Shown here: positions 23,147-30,658 of the stretch, piece by piece
How positions within the stretch are numbered: the first letter of the stretch is position 1
Layout of the letters: each line of letters starts with the position of its first letter
DNA from: Chitinophagaceae bacterium
GTDB lineage: Bacteria > Bacteroidota > Bacteroidia > Chitinophagales > Chitinophagaceae
DNA: 64,000 nt
Reading direction: 5' to 3'
Assembly: GCA_023957155.1 (NCBI GenBank)
Contig: JAMLHK010000007.1
Location: forward strand, 124,001 to 188,000
Notes under the pieces: model-generated
The model's input: only the letters and a program-made list of their open reading frames with translations
What the model was told of the DNA's origin: nothing
The model's database searches: none
Program-made: the position numbers and the translations under genes

Positions 23147-23794
23147 ATGTCTGTAACACTCCTTATACTCATCGTCACCAGCATCGTTTCTATAGTCGCT
23201 CTTAAAAATGAGCAGTTACTGGATAATTTGATTTTTTATCCGCCGGCAGTGACCGAAAGAAAACAATATTATCGCTTCTTCACCTGTGGCTTTATACATG
23301 CCAATATACCCCATCTTGTATTCAACATGTATTCGTTCTGGATATTCGGCGAATATGTAGAAATACTTTTCATGTCAATCTTTGGACACATGGGGCGATG
23401 GTATTACTTACTCATGTATATCACGGCGCTAGCGGTATGTCTGTTGCCAACCTATGCCAAAAATAAAGACAATTACTACTATAGAAGTCTCGGTGCTTCA
23501 GGTGCTGTTTCCGCAGTAATTTTTGTCTTTATTTTCCTCAACCCGCTGCAGGGAATAGGACTGATCTTTCTGCCCAGAGAGCTGATGATACCCGGCTTTA
23601 TCTTTGGCTTTTTATATTTAGCTATTTCTTCCTATTTAGATAAAAAAGGCGGGGGCAATATTAATCACTCGGCTCATATATGGGGAGCCATATACGGGAT
23701 TATATTTCTTATTGTAACCGCCTGGTTATTTTCAGGAATTAATTTATTAGACAATTTTTTGCTATCAGTCAAATCATATTTTAGCAGATCCTAA
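23147..23794 (+). CDS. rhomboid-family intramembrane serine protease
   Basis: The 215-residue protein has six or so hydrophobic segments and the rhomboid signature: GFIHANIPHLVFNM in the first loop/helix, nucleophile Ser118 in LGASGAVSA, and His177 in NHSAHIWGAIYG. It should cleave membrane proteins within the bilayer; the substrate is unknown. Its last 27 codons lie in a 97-bp sequence that recurs, diverged, at 27832-27928. Just downstream, on the other strand, the same repeat keeps a 12-codon relic of the tilS 3' end, so this gene was originally convergent with tilS. Confidence 0.9.
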   Translation: MSVTLLILIVTSIVSIVALKNEQLLDNLIFYPPAVTERKQYYRFFTCGFIHANIPHLVFNMYSFWIFGEYVEILFMSIFGHMGRWYYLLMYITALAVCLLPTYAKNKDNYYYRSLGASGAVSAVIFVFIFLNPLQGIGLIFLPRELMIPGFIFGFLYLAISSYLDKKGGGNINHSAHIWGAIYGIIFLIVTAWLFSGINLLDNFLLSVKSYFSRS

Positions 23795-23810
23795 GCTTAC
23801 CCTAAGTACG
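23714..23810 (+). repeat. left copy of a 97-bp diverged direct repeat (rhomboid/tilS junction)
   Basis: This copy covers the rhomboid codons for VTAWLFSGINLLDN onward, the stop at 23792-23794 and 16 bases beyond. It aligns without gaps to 27832-27928, with 77 of 97 bases identical by hand alignment and 17 of the 20 differences transitions. On the minus strand, 23774-23809 reads VLRVSLGSAKI plus stop, matching the true TilS end MLRISLETVEI, so a tilS tail is preserved here although tilS itself lies 4 kb away. Confidence 0.85.
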
Positions 23811-24235
23811 ACTCTTATATTGGACAATACTGTCAACTAATTACCAACTCTTTTACTCATAGAATCTTCCTATTCTATTTTATATCAACCACACTTTTTC
23901 TTTTTCTGATTTTGGCAATTCCTAATTATAAGAACCTTTATAAGCCAAACCTATTTTAACCTCTAATGGACAAATCTGAGGAATCCCACACTTACAACAC
24001 AATAACAGTAAAGTATCCATTTCAATATTCTTATTTATAAACAATTTTCTCTAAATAATTTATTATTAATATTGATACATAAGGAACAACACATATTTGT
24101 AATTAAATATATTTAAATTCAAAAGAAAAGTATTTTTTTGCATGGTTATTGTAGCCCCATCTACCAATATTCGTCTTTAATTAAAAAGATATTATATATT
24201 ACTAGACCGTAAACCTGACAAATTTTATCCCTTTC
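23811..24235. other. gene-free, very A+T-rich spacer before the PL8 gene
   Basis: About 425 bases after the left repeat contain no open frame of note and are strongly A+T-rich. They presumably hold the promoter of the chondroitinase-like gene; CATATTTG near 24092-24099 is one mismatch from the Bacteroidota -7 consensus TAnnTTTG, but no convincing -33 partner was found. No similarity to the tilS coding region could be seen beyond the repeat. Confidence 0.5.
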
Positions 24236-27200
24236 ATGATTGCTACTTTTAAATCCAATTCTTTTTTTAAAACATCAAAAAAAACAATAATATCTTTCTC
24301 CATACTTATACTTACCTACAATATCATATATGCACAGCCTGACCTAGAGCATGCCGTACCGGCTAATTATAATACAACCCAAGGGACACTTTCGATAAGC
24401 GACAGGCATTACCGCCTTGGAGAACAATCACTTAGATGGGATTGGATAGCCGGAGATACACTGATAATTGATTTAACTCCCGATGAGGAAGATGAAGTGA
24501 ATCCATACTTAACATTATGGGCAAAGAATCACTTTGAAATGTGGATACACAACGAACTTCCTTCAACTGATACTTTTGAAGTTAAATTCATTAATTACGA
24601 CAATGAAGACCAATTTCGTTTTCGCTTCAATATTAATTATAAAGGATGGAGAAAAATGCTACGTAGCTATCGCTTAGACATGCTAAAACAATATATAACA
24701 TATAACACATACAAATGGAATGTAGATAAAATTTATCTATTAGCTCCCAATATAGGAAGCGGGTCTATATACATAGACAATATACAATATATGAGAGACT
24801 CTGAAATGAAATATTCTGACCGTCAGATGCCCGACCTCTATGCATTAGCTAACGATAAAGATAAACTTTCCAGTGATCTATATTACAAAATTGATAGCCT
24901 TAATAATTCAATACCGGTATCGATTCCAACTCCAACCGAATTAGCCGGGCTTTCTTCTATCCGCAATAAAATTTTACAACAAACTTTCAGTTCAGCACCC
25001 TCTTCAAATAACTTAACGAGTGCTAACTTGGAATATGAGTTCTATAATATTGTAACAAATGACAGCTTAATTAAGGGAAAAGACATTGAAAAGCCTGCAC
25101 AAATTTCCCAGATGTTTATGACCTTCACATATAGCTATATATATAACAATAATACCGATAGTAAAGATAAAGCTATCAATTTGTTGAGGTTAATGCTGGA
25201 TTGCGGGCTAGCCGGTGGAAGTGGACGATGGTTTGCGGGGAATTATAATGGCTATAATGATACGGTATTCTTTAAGACCCTCACCGATGCTTACCGGTTT
25301 ATTCCGGATGATCTTAAATACTCTATATATGATTTCCTAAAATGGTCAACTGATGTCAATTTGGGGTGGATGGACAATCCGGAAGGACTTTTTGACACTG
25401 ATAACATTTATACACTTTGCAGGGCTTACCTTTGTACCATTCTATATAATCCAGATACCGCTACTGCAGTAAAAGACTTAAAATGTCTCAAAGCTTTTAT
25501 TGAGAAATTTTTAACCTTTCAACCGGGAGATACTGATGGTATGAAACCGGATGGAACTGTCTTTCACCACTTTGCACACTATAACGGGTACGCTTACGCG
25601 TTCTCAAGACTTATAGACCCTATTTTATCCACACTAAGCGGTACAGTCTTTCAAATAAATGATACTGCATATTCCTATTTAAGAAAAGTAGTGTACTCCC
25701 AATACATTTCAAGCAACGAAGTACAATACGCCAATAGTCTTTGCGGAAGAAACCCTTTTTCAACAAATATTTCCTTTGCGAAGAGACATTTTTATTCTTT
25801 ATCACTAATAGGAGGAGATGTTGCGGGTGCTCCTTTTGATCCTGTTGCAGCAGGAGTATATATTCGACTATATGGCAAAAACGAGACATTCCCGGGCATC
25901 TCTGCAGAACCTTTTCCTTCCGGCTTCTGGCAAATGAACTATAGCCCGCTGGCCATGTACAGAAGAAATAACTGGGCTGCAACCATCAAAGGCATCAATA
26001 ACTATTTCTGGGGAACCGAAATTTACCCGGGAGCCAACCGCTACGGAAGATATCAAAGTTACGGAGCAGTGGAAATCATGTACCCCGATGGGCTTGCAGG
26101 AAGCGGTATAAGCGCTGCCGGATGGGACTGGAATAAAATACCTGGTGCCACAACCATAGCCTTGCCTTTTAACTCGTTAGTACTACCTTCTTCTCAAAGC
26201 AAATTAGACGAAAAAAACCAATTCAACTTTTCCGGTGGAGTAAAGTTTGAAACTCCTGCTCTTAATGCTCCCTCTGATGTGATCCTGACTGAGCTTCACG
26301 GCAACTATGGTATGTTTGCTTTGAATTTTAAACAAATAGCAGCTACTGCCACCCATAACTCCAGCTTTGTATTTCGTAAATCCTTTTTCTGCTTCGATGA
26401 TAAAATAGTTTGTCTGGGAAGTAATATCAACAACAACGATGCTGCTAATAAAACCATTACCACTTTGTTCCAGGGTACTTTACCTTCCACCTCTACACCT
26501 ACCATTATTGACGGGGCAGCAAAAACCGGCATTTCCCAATCCGAGGACCTTACCCAAACAAACCCACACTGGCTTATAGATGCATATAAAACAGGATACT
26601 ATGTTCTGCCAGGCAATACCATACATCTGGAAAGACAGTCCCAGACGAGCCCCGACCAGTCCGGCTCAGGAGCCACTACTACCGCCAACTTTGCCAATGC
26701 GTATATAGACCACGGCTATGCGCCTGCAAGTGCTGACTATGCTTATGTTATTGCACCCAATACCACCAGTCAGGGCATGACCACTTTTGCCACAAGTATG
26801 CAATCGCCATCTACCCGGGCTTTTGATATTCTCCAACAAGACACCGCAGCTCATATCGTCCGTGAGAATACCAACAGTGTTACTGGCTTCAGTCTCTTTT
26901 TACCTAACAACAACCTGCTTACCAATGATATTCTCAAAAGTAATGATGCACCCTGTGTAGCTGTTATGCAGATAAAAGAGGATACATTGCGTATCTCACT
27001 GGTTAACCCTGACCTGAACCTTGTTAATAATAAAAGTACAGCTGTTCCCATTACATTAACACTATATGGATCCTGGTCAAAAATCCCCGGCTTACCTTCT
27101 CATTACGCCTATGTATTATCGTCAGAAGGATCGCAAACTATTGTTCAGTTTAACCCGGTTGACGGAATGCCTGCCGAAATCGCCATGATCAAAAGCAATG

Positions 27201-27739
27201 AGGTCATCCTCCCTCTAGCAGTATTGTCATTCTCCGGAAGTTCCGATATATCCGCCAATCAAAATGTGCTTGATCTCACTGTTGAAAACGATGGCGAAGC
27301 AGTAACCTATTATCTTGAACGGCAGACTTCCGGTAGCAATACCTGGACTACCATCGCAGATCACAGCTTTGGTCCGGCAACGGGGAGCCAGAAATTCAGC
27401 TTCTATGACCACGATATTGATGCTTCTGATTATCTATATCGTGTTAAATGGCAGCAATATTCCGGGGTGTGGAAATACTCCCATATTGTAACACTCAGGA
27501 ATGATCGGATGAACCATATTATTGTAGCTCCTAACCCGGCAAAGGGTGCATTCACCGTACGATTAAAACAAAAAGCACCAGGCAAGCTGAGATGGCTGCT
27601 ATCTGACATTTCGGGAAAAGTAATAAAACAGGGATACCTGGCTAATGCCATAGAAACCATTGCTGTACAGGGAATAGCTCCAGGTCTGTATTTTTTCCAT
27701 CTCTCAACAGGGGAAACCATACGCATTATCCTGGGATAG
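24236..27739 (+). CDS. secreted chondroitinase-ABC-like polysaccharide lyase (PL8) with T9SS sorting domain
   Basis: The 1167-residue protein has a signal peptide (cleavage near YAQ, residue 34), an N-terminal jelly-roll domain (about 40-200), an alpha/alpha toroid (about 225-560), and beta-sandwich domains (about 560-1000). The end is a type IX secretion C-terminal domain (APNPAKGAFTVRL to GLYFFHLSTGETIRIIL). The PL8 catalytic residues align with chondroitinase ABC I: His445 and Tyr452 in HFAHYNGYA, Arg505 in CGRNPF, Glu595 before NRYGRYQS. It should be exported and cleave uronic-acid glycosaminoglycans or a similar acidic polymer. It sits between two diverged copies of the rhomboid/tilS junction. 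G+C is about 30 percent in sampled 5' lines and above 45 percent in sampled 3' lines, with the change near 25800. Confidence 0.88.
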   Translation: MIATFKSNSFFKTSKKTIISFSILILTYNIIYAQPDLEHAVPANYNTTQGTLSISDRHYRLGEQSLRWDWIAGDTLIIDLTPDEEDEVNPYLTLWAKNHFEMWIHNELPSTDTFEVKFINYDNEDQFRFRFNINYKGWRKMLRSYRLDMLKQYITYNTYKWNVDKIYLLAPNIGSGSIYIDNIQYMRDSEMKYSDRQMPDLYALANDKDKLSSDLYYKIDSLNNSIPVSIPTPTELAGLSSIRNKILQQTFSSAPSSNNLTSANLEYEFYNIVTNDSLIKGKDIEKPAQISQMFMTFTYSYIYNNNTDSKDKAINLLRLMLDCGLAGGSGRWFAGNYNGYNDTVFFKTLTDAYRFIPDDLKYSIYDFLKWSTDVNLGWMDNPEGLFDTDNIYTLCRAYLCTILYNPDTATAVKDLKCLKAFIEKFLTFQPGDTDGMKPDGTVFHHFAHYNGYAYAFSRLIDPILSTLSGTVFQINDTAYSYLRKVVYSQYISSNEVQYANSLCGRNPFSTNISFAKRHFYSLSLIGGDVAGAPFDPVAAGVYIRLYGKNETFPGISAEPFPSGFWQMNYSPLAMYRRNNWAATIKGINNYFWGTEIYPGANRYGRYQSYGAVEIMYPDGLAGSGISAAGWDWNKIPGATTIALPFNSLVLPSSQSKLDEKNQFNFSGGVKFETPALNAPSDVILTELHGNYGMFALNFKQIAATATHNSSFVFRKSFFCFDDKIVCLGSNINNNDAANKTITTLFQGTLPSTSTPTIIDGAAKTGISQSEDLTQTNPHWLIDAYKTGYYVLPGNTIHLERQSQTSPDQSGSGATTTANFANAYIDHGYAPASADYAYVIAPNTTSQGMTTFATSMQSPSTRAFDILQQDTAAHIVRENTNSVTGFSLFLPNNNLLTNDILKSNDAPCVAVMQIKEDTLRISLVNPDLNLVNNKSTAVPITLTLYGSWSKIPGLPSHYAYVLSSEGSQTIVQFNPVDGMPAEIAMIKSNEVILPLAVLSFSGSSDISANQNVLDLTVENDGEAVTYYLERQTSGSNTWTTIADHSFGPATGSQKFSFYDHDIDASDYLYRVKWQQYSGVWKYSHIVTLRNDRMNHIIVAPNPAKGAFTVRLKQKAPGKLRWLLSDISGKVIKQGYLANAIETIAVQGIAPGLYFFHLSTGETIRIILG

Positions 27740-27831
27740 TAATGAAGTATCTAAATATATTAAACAGAGCAGAACATAAACCCCTAAAAAAGATATTTTC
27801 ACACGTTTTGAAGCTACGAGAAAGTTTTTAT

Positions 27832-27912
27832 ATAACTGCCTGATTATCTTCAGAAATTAGTTTATTAGACAATTTCCTGCTATCGGTAAAATCATATTTC
27901 AACCGTTTCTAA
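27832..27912 (+). pseudogene. relic of the rhomboid protease 3' end
   Basis: The last 26 codons of a rhomboid gene survive here, with one in-frame stop (TGA for the Trp codon at 27841) and the terminal TAA at 27910-27912. The residues LLDNFLLSVKSYF are identical to the intact protein. The relic overlaps the end of tilS on the other strand by 21 bases, which shows how the two genes were once arranged. Confidence 0.8.
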
Positions 27913-27928
27913 GCTTATTCTGAGCATG
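27832..27928 (+). repeat. right copy of the 97-bp diverged direct repeat (rhomboid/tilS junction)
   Basis: This is the partner of 23714-23810. On the plus strand it reads ITA, stop, then LSSEISLLDNFLLSVKSYF, a relic of the rhomboid C-terminus with TGG changed to TGA. On the minus strand it holds the real last codons of tilS. Similarity fades just upstream of 27832, where only scattered matches to the rhomboid gene remain. Confidence 0.85.
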
Positions 27929-29256
27929 TTTTTTGTACTCGCCGTAACCTTAAACCGGTCATCAATTCTTTTATTTACTACCCACACAATTTTCTTTTTC
28001 ATTTCTATAACCCAGACGCTTTCTTTTTCAATCAGCGACATTTTCTGATCAATAAAAAACCTCGCCAGTTTTTTTTTCTTATGCATACCCAGCGGATAAA
28101 AGTAATCACCCGCTTTCCATTTACGCAGAATCAGCGGAAATTCGATCTGCTTTAAATCCAGGCAGGCAATAGTAGAAGATAACGGAAAATCCATCTCTCT
28201 GTCTTTTACCTCCTTCGTTGCTATGTTTAATCGCCCTCCCTCAAAAATCACCTCTGTATCTTCTTCCTGAATCAAAATCATTTGATTTGTCAAACGCTTT
28301 AAAGGCGAGATAATCAGCCGGTTCCTGTGCCGGAGTATCCGGTGGGTAGGTGACAGAACGAATTTTCCGGTTTCTGCCTCTAAAAGTGCAACCGCATCTT
28401 TGGTTTGCTTTGCCGTAAAACCGTACTGCTTTATAATTTCGAATACCACTGTTTTCAAAGGCTCTACCCTGGAAAGCTTGAGTATAGATACAGATAACTC
28501 ACCCTTCTTCTCTTCAAGCAGCTTTTTTTTATGTGCCGAAATAGCCTGATTGTATAGCAATTCAATGTCCCGGAAACGGTCAATATTATCCATTATACTT
28601 TGTCTGGCGGCCGGGTATATTTCCTCAATAGCAGGAATTATCCGGTGCCGTACATAATTCCGGGAATACTTATCGGATGCATTGCTGGAATCCTCAACGA
28701 ATTCCAAAGCCTGTTCTTTTGCAAAAGCCAGGATATCCTGTTTTCCCGTAAACAAAAGAGGTCTTATTATCATACCGATTTTCGGCAAAATACCCCTCAT
28801 GCCTCCAACACCTGTTCCTTTAAAAAAATTCATCAGTACGGTTTCTATGTTATCATCGCCATGATGGGCCGTTGCGACATATACAGGGCAGCCGGTTTCA
28901 GCATGCAAATGCGTTGCCAGTTCATCAAACCATCTGTATCTCAGCTCCCTGGCAGCAACCTGGACCGAAACCTTTTTTTGTGAAACATAGGATTCCGTTT
29001 CAAATCGTTTTGAAAACAAACGGGACCGGTAGCGCTCCGCCAATGAATATACAAATTGTTCATCGCGGATACTCTCCTCTCCTCTTAACTGGAAGTTGCA
29101 ATGTGCTATGGCAAATTGATAGCCAGATAAATGAAACAATTCACATAAAACTACGGAATCTGCTCCCCCACTTACGGCAAGCAGCAACTGGTTGTTTGAA
29201 GGAAAAAGTCTTTCCTTACGAATATATTCCTGAAACAGGAGTAGTAAATCTTGCAT
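27892..29256 (-). CDS. tilS: tRNA(Ile)-lysidine synthase
   Basis: The protein has the PP-loop LLAVSGGADSVVL, HCNFQLRGEES, VATAHHGDDNIETVLMNFF and the Ile-specific GTGVGGMRGI block, followed by a TilS substrate-binding middle and a C-terminal domain (WKAGDYFYPLGMHKKKK). It makes lysidine at position 34 of tRNA-Ile(CAU) with ATP and is normally essential. The frame runs up to ATG 29298, overlapping the TPR gene, but ATG 29256 (454 residues, MQDLLLLFQEYIRKE) gives the family's usual N-terminus and is preferred. The 3' end lies in the right copy of the 97-bp repeat. Confidence 0.93.
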   Translation of the reverse strand: MQDLLLLFQEYIRKERLFPSNNQLLLAVSGGADSVVLCELFHLSGYQFAIAHCNFQLRGEESIRDEQFVYSLAERYRSRLFSKRFETESYVSQKKVSVQVAARELRYRWFDELATHLHAETGCPVYVATAHHGDDNIETVLMNFFKGTGVGGMRGILPKIGMIIRPLLFTGKQDILAFAKEQALEFVEDSSNASDKYSRNYVRHRIIPAIEEIYPAARQSIMDNIDRFRDIELLYNQAISAHKKKLLEEKKGELSVSILKLSRVEPLKTVVFEIIKQYGFTAKQTKDAVALLEAETGKFVLSPTHRILRHRNRLIISPLKRLTNQMILIQEEDTEVIFEGGRLNIATKEVKDREMDFPLSSTIACLDLKQIEFPLILRKWKAGDYFYPLGMHKKKKLARFFIDQKMSLIEKESVWVIEMKKKIVWVVNKRIDDRFKVTASTKNMLRISLETVEI

Positions 29257-29287
29257 ACCTACAAATAATAAAATCTCTCTGAAGCTT

Positions 29288-29608
29288 TCATTCGCCACTC
29301 AATTCTTCCCACGCTGTATATAGTTCCTGGTATGTATTCCTATTACCAACCGTATTTGCAACATCCATTCCTCGTTGATACCAAAGCAAAGCTCCTGCAA
29401 TTTCTCCATTCCTTTCCAGTAATTTTGCCAGTTGATAATATGAACCCAGATAAGAAGGGTCTCTTTCCAGAACCTTTTCCAAAAGACGGCGCGCCTCCTG
29501 ATCATTCCCTTCTTTAATATATTCTAAAGCCAATGCATGCAGCAGAAAACTATCATCAGGGGAATCTTTCAAAAAAGATAATAATTTTTCAATTCTCTCC
29601 ATATCCAT
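29288..29608 (-). CDS. small tetratricopeptide-repeat protein
   Basis: The 106-residue protein holds about two TPR units: SFLLHALALEYIKEGNDQEA and GSYYQLAKLLERNGEIAGA, with the usual small and aromatic residues at helix packing positions. It has no signal peptide or membrane segment and is probably a cytoplasmic scaffold. It lies 31 bases upstream of the preferred tilS start on the same strand, so they may share an operon. Similar small TPR proteins are common in Bacteroidota; no specific function can be assigned. Confidence 0.8.
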   Translation of the reverse strand: MDMERIEKLLSFLKDSPDDSFLLHALALEYIKEGNDQEARRLLEKVLERDPSYLGSYYQLAKLLERNGEIAGALLWYQRGMDVANTVGNRNTYQELYTAWEELSGE

Positions 29609-29914
29609 TTAAAAATTTAAATTACATAACCTAACCCTGGAAATACATATTTTCTCATACACATACAGCTATATAAATAGTATATCAGGATCAAGCCAAA
29701 TCTTAGATAACAGGAATCTTCCCCGAAAATACCATCCCCCAAAATTTAGAATATCTCCGATTTCTTGCGCTATTAAATAAATCTCTTACTATATTTGTAA
29801 TTAAAAATAGTTGCATAAACAACTTTATGGGTCGTTTTCAAACCGGGATATTCCGGACATAAATTGAATCTCCCGGTTCCTGTTTGACAACAACCAAAGT
29901 GTAAAAATAAAGAA
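29609..29914. other. intergenic region between divergent TPR and etf genes
   Basis: These 306 bases separate divergent genes. The etf side contains a promoter-like pair (29765-29797) and a 117-base leader with two small dyads: AGTTG/CAACT (29809-29824) and AACCGGGA/TCCCGGTT (29841-29848 and 29871-29878). Nothing else stands out; the half near the TPR gene is plain A+T-rich sequence. Confidence 0.5.
29765..29797 (+). promoter_or_regulatory. Bacteroidota-type promoter for etfBA
   Basis: TATATTTG at 29790-29797 matches the Bacteroidota -7 consensus TAnnTTTG exactly, and TTG at 29765-29767 lies 22 bases upstream as a -33 element. The start of transcription would fall near 29803, about 110 bases before the etfB ATG. 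Confidence 0.55.
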
Positions 29915-30658
29915 ATGAAAATATTAGTTTGTATCAGCAAATCGCCGGACACTACAGCTAAAATTGCCTTTACCGATAATAATACAAAATTTGCCGCCGC
30001 GGGGGTACAATGGATCATCAACCCCTATGATGAATGGTATGCCCTCGTGAAGGCTATCGAGATTAAGGAAAAAGATACTTCTGCCGTTATACACCTGGTA
30101 ACGGTAGGTCCTGCAGATGTAGAACCCATTATCCGTAAAGCTCTGGCATTAGGGGGTGATGAAGCCATTCGGGTTAATGCCGATAGCCAGGATAGTTTTT
30201 ATGTGGCAGCCCAGATCGCAGAAATAGCCCGCCAGGGAGGCTACGATCTGATTTTCACCGGTAAAGAAACCATTGATTATAACGGATCTTCCGTGGGAGG
30301 CATGATAGCTGAAATGTTGAATATGCCTTTTGTCGGACTGGCCAACCATTTTGAACTAAACGGAAATACCTCAACCATCACCCGTGAAATAGAAGGCGGT
30401 GAAGAAAAAGTTGAAGTAGATCTACCCGTTGTGGTGAGCTGCCAGCAGGGAATGGCTGAAGCGAGAATACCCAACATGCGCGGCATCATGGCAGCCCGTA
30501 CAAAACCGCTAAAAGTAGTAGAACCGGCAGCAGCCGATAGTCTTACCGAGATTGTTCAATTTGAATTGCCTCCTGCAAAAGAAGGAGTAAAATTAATTCC
30601 TGCCGATAACCCGGCGGAACTGATAAGACTGCTTCACGAGGAAGCAAAAGTGATTTAA
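29915..30658 (+). CDS. etfB: electron transfer flavoprotein beta subunit
   Basis: The 247-residue protein begins MKILVCISKSPDTTAKIAF and has the ETF-beta pattern DEWYALVKAIEIKE, KALALGGDEAIRVN, TGKETIDYNGSSVGGMIAE and LPVVVSCQQGMAEARIPNM. With EtfA, 33 bases downstream, it forms the cytoplasmic FAD/AMP heterodimer that passes electrons from acyl-CoA dehydrogenases to the ETF-quinone oxidoreductase. Length and start are normal for the family. It follows a good Bacteroidota promoter and a leader with a dyad. Confidence 0.95.
   Translation: MKILVCISKSPDTTAKIAFTDNNTKFAAAGVQWIINPYDEWYALVKAIEIKEKDTSAVIHLVTVGPADVEPIIRKALALGGDEAIRVNADSQDSFYVAAQIAEIARQGGYDLIFTGKETIDYNGSSVGGMIAEMLNMPFVGLANHFELNGNTSTITREIEGGEEKVEVDLPVVVSCQQGMAEARIPNMRGIMAARTKPLKVVEPAAADSLTEIVQFELPPAKEGVKLIPADNPAELIRLLHEEAKVI

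Follow-up and report, generated by a model that had tools for sequence, protein, structure and literature searches.

We analysed a gene for a PL8 lyase that stands between a rhomboid gene and tilS in a 64,000-nucleotide stretch of DNA (the window, always meant at its full length) of contig JAMLHK010000007.1 from a Chitinophagaceae bacterium. The gene order is rlmH (identified by PF02590), rhomboid, PL8 lyase, tilS (reverse), a TPR gene (reverse), and two genes which, from the appearance of their sequences, we take to be etfB and etfA. On each side of the lyase lies a copy of the junction at which rhomboid and tilS meet tail to tail. For comparison we used a genus set of 12 genomes, namely the window's genome (G000) and 11 relatives, and the genus includes Agriterribacter humi (Chitinophagaceae), here G003. 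The features of the locus are as follows.

23147..23794, + strand: rhomboid gene, intact, 215 amino acids (PF01694, E 4.3e-22)
23706..23907: left junction copy, intact rhomboid 3' end plus tilS relic (gapped alignment, score 76)
23795..23907, - strand: tilS 3'-end relic, about 113 bp, with 7-base and 2-base indels and no codon constraint
23908..24235: intergenic DNA 5' of the lyase, no clear relative found
24236..27739, + strand: PL8 lyase gene (predicted), 1167 amino acids, with a C-terminal type IX secretion tail
27740..27824: short intergenic stretch from the lyase stop to the rhomboid relic, no clear relative found
27825..28030: right junction copy, rhomboid relic plus intact tilS 3' end
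27825..27912, + strand: rhomboid 3'-end relic, 88 bp, in-frame TGA at 27841-27843
27892..29298, - strand: tilS, intact, 468 amino acids (PF01171, PF11734)
29288..29608, - strand: TPR-protein gene, which adjoins tilS in G003 and G007 too
29915..30658, + strand: presumed etfB, the marker of the rhomboid-tilS-etfB neighbourhood

Two copies of the junction around the lyase gene

An initial annotation of the window had aligned 23714-23810 by hand with 27832-27928 and reported 77 identities in 97 positions with differences that are mostly transitions. Our ungapped realignment gave the same count, and 17 of the 20 differences are transitions. It turned out that the repeat is even longer, since gapped local alignment lengthens it to 23706-23907 and 27825-28030 (about 202-206 bp) with a score of 76, and the maximum score in 300 dinucleotide shuffles was 20, which means that the similarity does not fall to background when it is computed in this way. 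Other searches led to the same pair: the repeat finder ranked it first in the window (141 nt, 73%; 103 of 141 identical), the left region as a query against the whole genome returned the right copy (E 5.3e-19, 84% over 85 bp), and the rhomboid protein as a query against the genome returned the relic with one TGA (E 5.7e-4).

The open reading frames (ORFs) and Pfam domains agree with the annotation that only rhomboid is intact in the left copy and only tilS in the right copy, and the rhomboid relic on the right does contain the TGA described there. The relic of tilS on the left also exists, but the 12 codons assigned to it were too few, as the tilS homology runs about 113 bp beyond the rhomboid stop, which is about three times longer. 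The far part of this relic alone (23854-23907) scores 21, a value reached by 1 of 1000 shuffles.

An assembly artefact or a chance similarity might be suspected, considering that the genome (26 contigs, with the window on contig 24) is 88.28% complete and 4.35% contaminated. Nevertheless, the copies differ at about one fifth of their sites and show relic decay, a divergence that a misjoin would not produce, the shuffles never came near the repeat score, and the site is located within a 256-kb contig, which makes this explanation hardly credible.

For the inserted gene, three PL8 domains score above the Pfam cut-offs (PF09092, 94 bits; PF09093, 100 bits; PF02278, 113.4 bits), while the C-terminal PF02884 scores 21.4 bits, just below its cut-off of 22. 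The best match with a solved structure is chondroitin ABC lyase I (1hn0; E 8.3e-83, best stretch 313-984). Read by eye, His445, Tyr452, Arg505 and Glu595 of the protein align with the catalytic residues of that enzyme, which we take to be His501, Tyr508, Arg560 and Glu653. The gene is thus predicted to encode a PL8 lyase of the chondroitin ABC lyase group, with which it shares the sequence match; it carries a type IX secretion tail, and no peculiarity apart from its position was noticed. Between the repeats, the lyase and two antisense ORFs within it are the sole ORFs of at least 80 amino acids, and none of the three is an integrase, transposase or relaxase. TAnnTTTG is a promoter consensus, and no motif like it was found between rhomboid and the lyase.

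The junction and the lyase in related genomes

The junction was surveyed in 35 distinct genomes besides the window's genome that have both genes on one examined locus (19 from a genome search and 16 from a contig scan), a count which genomes with rhomboid and tilS far apart could not enter. The loci examined were L033-L144 and L186-L191; L113 (taken to duplicate G018) and L093, L094 and L096 (equal to G010, G007 and G003) were removed, and L110 and L118 share a strain name, by which one genome is possibly counted twice. Rhomboid and tilS are convergent in all of the 35 genomes. Their stops overlap in 19 of 35, abut in 1 genome, are 8-32 bp apart in 6 and 77-699 bp apart in 7, and stand more than 2.6 kb apart in 2.

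Within the genus, the two genes are adjacent in G010, G004, G006 and G009, and the junction is filled in three genomes: by the lyase in the window's genome, by an MBOAT gene together with a second gene without a Pfam match in G003, and by two ORFs in G007 that resemble, by eye, the MBOAT pair of G003. G001, G005 and G011 give no junction call (contig ends or a gene not found), and a search of the end of the G001 contig beyond rhomboid found nothing. As side observations, the filled junctions of G003 and G007 correspond to L096:8740-11153 and L094:8826-11278, and the seam has been opened in more than one way within the genus; in G002 (C45) about 134 kb separates rhomboid from tilS, and in G008 (C1/C2) they lie on different large contigs.

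The initial annotation had proposed a search for genomes with the empty site, and such a genome exists: in G010, the sister of the window's genome, rhomboid and tilS overlap by 12 bp with nothing between them. It had also considered that relatives lacking the lyase might carry both junction copies. This was examined at loci with a gap of at least 77 bp (smaller gaps have no room for the repeat), which comprise the MBOAT-filled junctions of G003 and G007 and the seven loci with gaps of 77-699 bp, and none of these 9 shows a junction repeat above shuffles. The best score against a locus's own genes came from L101 (48 of 300 shuffles as good), and the best against the junction of another genome from G007 with G010 (18 of 300 as good).

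What the annotation missed is a different home of the lyase within the genus. The gene is present in 5 of the 12 genomes (G000, G003, G006, G009 and G010), and in the other seven the best lyase matches among those listed are weak (E 9e-11 to 2e-7) and fall in the C-terminal secretion-tail region. In G003 and G009 the row is an oxidoreductase (PF01408), a TIM-barrel gene (PF01261), a fatty acid hydroxylase (PF04116), the lyase, and a gene which we take to be lepA, the domains of this row being assigned from the G010 and G003 proteins. G006 has the same row plus one reverse ORF before the lyase. Contig 12 of the window's genome carries the same row without the lyase, with about 140 bp between the hydroxylase and lepA, and the portion of this spacer nearest to lepA matches the lyase-lepA spacer of G003 (score 52; 0 of 300 shuffles as good).

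The sister relationship comes from a tree of five proteins (lepA, oxidoreductase, etfB, tilS and rhomboid; tilS missing for G001, oxidoreductase for G008, and G011 excluded), in which G010 joins the window's genome with support 95/97. Among the single-gene trees, those of tilS (91/92) and the oxidoreductase (90/91) also join the two genomes, and those of lepA, etfB and rhomboid leave the position of the window's genome open. For the lyase itself, a grouping with G003 is rejected (p-AU 0.01) but one with G010 is not (p-AU 0.36), and the lyase tree is in this sense compatible with vertical descent.

Origin and decay of the two junction copies

Among the sequences compared, the two junction copies are each other's nearest. 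Over the 81 nt of the rhomboid tail they are 81% identical to each other and 52-63% identical to G010, G003, G007 and G001, and for the tilS relic the identity is 65% to the tilS end of its own genome, against 51-56% to the tilS of G010, G003 and G007. Judged by their letters, neither copy looks foreign. The suggestion in the initial annotation that the second copy was imported from a relative was not borne out, given this closeness and the relic-like decay of the tilS half in the left copy; as the two copies group together, an imported second junction was set aside, and none is needed to account for them.

A related explanation is that a circular or imported segment from a relative, equipped with the lyase and a junction of its own, was integrated through a single crossover. 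Such a crossover would leave direct repeats on both sides, the copies do differ at 20 of 97 sites, and 7 of the 14 differences in the rhomboid frame are at third positions, which would be expected had the copies diverged in part when both ends were still working. We regard it as quite improbable all the same, since the copies are nearest to each other (with the tilS relic closest to its own tilS, as above), the tilS tree joins the window's genome to G010 (91/92) while the rhomboid and etfB trees leave the placement open, and a lyase at the rhomboid/tilS junction was seen only in the window's genome among 58 searched.

To summarize the changes, we sorted 140 ungapped columns with G010 as outgroup: 66 are the same in all three sequences, 36 are the same in left and right, 19 are changed on the left only, 8 on the right only, and in 11 all differ. 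In the part belonging to tilS only, the left copy alone changed at 14 sites and the right alone at 4 (two-sided binomial p 0.03). The left-right differences fall evenly on tilS codon positions 1, 2 and 3 (10/10/9, with the 21-bp overlap included), while in the working tilS third positions account for most of the differences from G010 (11 of 21). The tilS relic is therefore without codon constraint and is decaying freely. Each gene has kept the end that lies in one copy and the other half has become a relic, which is clearly so for tilS.

Probable relocation of the lyase with a duplication of the seam

Taken together, it is probable that a native lyase was relocated into the overlapping junction with a duplication of about 0.2 kb that arose within this lineage, and that the redundant halves then decayed. 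The claim of the initial annotation that the lyase arrived by an event which duplicated the junction is supported by the repeat and by the empty site in the sister G010. In the ancestor, rhomboid and tilS would have overlapped tail to tail and the lyase would have stood at its usual home beside lepA. About 200 bp across the junction would then have been duplicated in the lineage of the window's genome, a copy of the native lyase, presumably this lineage's own, placed between the two junction copies, and the home copy lost. Rhomboid would have kept the end in the left copy and tilS the end in the right copy, with the unused halves becoming relics. A plain insertion at the seam would probably damage one of the genes, because rhomboid and tilS overlap, and we suppose that the duplication preceded or accompanied the insertion. 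In the simplest chain, the seam would have undergone a small tandem duplication no later than the lyase arrived, and the loss at home and decay would have followed. The duplication may, for example, have been a small tandem one that made the seam tolerant, or the result of break repair filling staggered ends.

The same arrangement could come from a larger tandem duplication followed by loss, in which the lyase first came to lie between tpr (the TPR gene) and etfB, the block rhomboid end-tilS-tpr-lyase was duplicated, and the first tilS-tpr and the second lyase were lost. This yields the exact observed order and both relics, and tandem duplication is a common kind of mutation. Besides, the lyase lies directly upstream of etfB in the sister G010, and in G003 and G007 another gene for a secreted protein (LRR with a type IX tail) occupies the tpr-etfB gap. 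On the other hand, by match coordinates the required order rhomboid-tilS-tpr-lyase-etfB occurs in none of the 12 genus genomes, the spacers that could be related show a marginal similarity in only 2 of 5 comparisons (5 and 13 of 300 shuffles as good), and the lyase must have moved once beforehand, with two losses afterwards. The DNA between tpr and etfB that matches relatives is the DNA adjoining etfB, and a search of this gap for remains of the LRR gene or of another lyase copy gave only short or marginal matches, where a fully deleted copy would leave none. We consider the larger duplication unlikely, though it deserves to be kept in view, and insertion with a duplicated seam probable.

Several observations weigh against relocation with seam duplication as we describe it. 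The junction inserts of G003 and G007 show no visible repeat, which means that a duplication of the seam is not required for every insertion or has decayed there. No Ku gene was found in the window's genome or in G010, which weakens the version by end joining. G001, G004 and G007 are also without a lyase beside lepA, so loss at this place is common and need not be tied to a move, and the flanks of the lyase gave no match to the old home, so transport of home DNA is not supported. The lyase tree with far outgroups groups G003 with G010 (86/91), and without outgroups it is an open fork that does not itself place the window's genome with G010. In the part belonging to rhomboid only, the right copy alone changed at 4 sites and the left at 2, a small excess in the relic with too few sites to decide, and the left-right differences in the rhomboid frame are spread 7/5/2 over codon positions 3, 2 and 1; free decay of the rhomboid relic is consequently supported by the stop codon and not by these counts. 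What's more, decay has gone further in the tilS relic (23795-23854), with 24 of 60 positions different, than in the rhomboid relic (27832-27891), with 9 of 59 (Fisher p 0.004); small indels may have raised the first count, which was made without gaps. Neutral decay after one event would not give such an inequality, and gene conversion or constraint would be needed. The milder decay of the rhomboid relic could be explained if the working rhomboid end had converted it, or if the DNA just past the tilS stop were under constraint; the latter gains no support from RNA structure, as folding of both junction copies on both strands as RNA showed nothing unusual (z -1.15 to 0.40).

The locus resembles several known systems in part. 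Integrative elements can rebuild the 3' end of their target gene, and here, too, the insert stands between direct repeats and a target gene has retained a functional 3' end; in contrast to such elements, the ends of both neighbours are duplicated, no mobility gene exists among ORFs of at least 80 amino acids, and the insert is one ordinary lyase gene. Transposons that insert at staggered cuts also leave direct repeats around the insert, but their target-site duplications are typically a few bases long, while the repeat here is about 200 bp and no transposase ORF was seen. In the tandem duplication-random loss model of gene-order change, as in this locus, redundant parts of a duplicated block decay, relics stand beside the kept genes and the order is changed; what differs is that only about 0.2 kb of the seam is visibly duplicated, that the chromosome is bacterial, and that the gene stands at another locus in relatives. 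That model is best known from animal mitochondria; two papers listed for it are PMC5745709 and PMC4223735. Literature searches on duplication and loss in bacteria, nick repair, gene relocation, overlapping convergent genes and long target duplications returned nothing on this case among the listed titles and abstract openings.

The event is one of ordinary genome evolution, a gene relocation with duplication of the seam, which is well preserved and does not amount to a novel type of system. As a fossil of a gene move it is unusually easy to read, with the old home, the empty target in the sister, the duplicated seam and both relics all identifiable, and it suggests a route by which two overlapping genes can receive a third between them without being harmed. 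Paired copies of a seam, each decayed on the opposite side, form a signature that can be searched across genomes. A wider proposal, which we put forward as doubtful, is that overlapping convergent pairs in compact genomes can admit new genes mainly when the seam is duplicated, and that reciprocally decaying seam copies are a general and datable fossil of insertion. If it were true, the rhomboid/tilS seam would be a natural place to test it, being occupied by the lyase here and, in two relatives, by the MBOAT gene and its partner.

Some further observations concern the genus at large. Ku was found in 7 of the 12 genomes and not in the window's genome, G001, G008, G010 and G011. An LRR secreted-protein gene adjoins etfB in G003, G004, G007, G001 and G011, at the place corresponding to 29609-29914 of the window, and this gene has no match with E of 1e-50 or below in the window's genome. 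In G010 the LRR gene is followed by lepA and the lyase by etfB (L093:10158-13946 and L137:7731-12502), while in G003 the pairs are LRR-etfB and lyase-lepA, which is the pattern of a reciprocal exchange of downstream neighbours. The arrangement in G010 hints that this neighbourhood is prone to exchange, and we draw no link from it to the event in the window's genome. Both the LRR and the lyase genes end in a type IX secretion tail.

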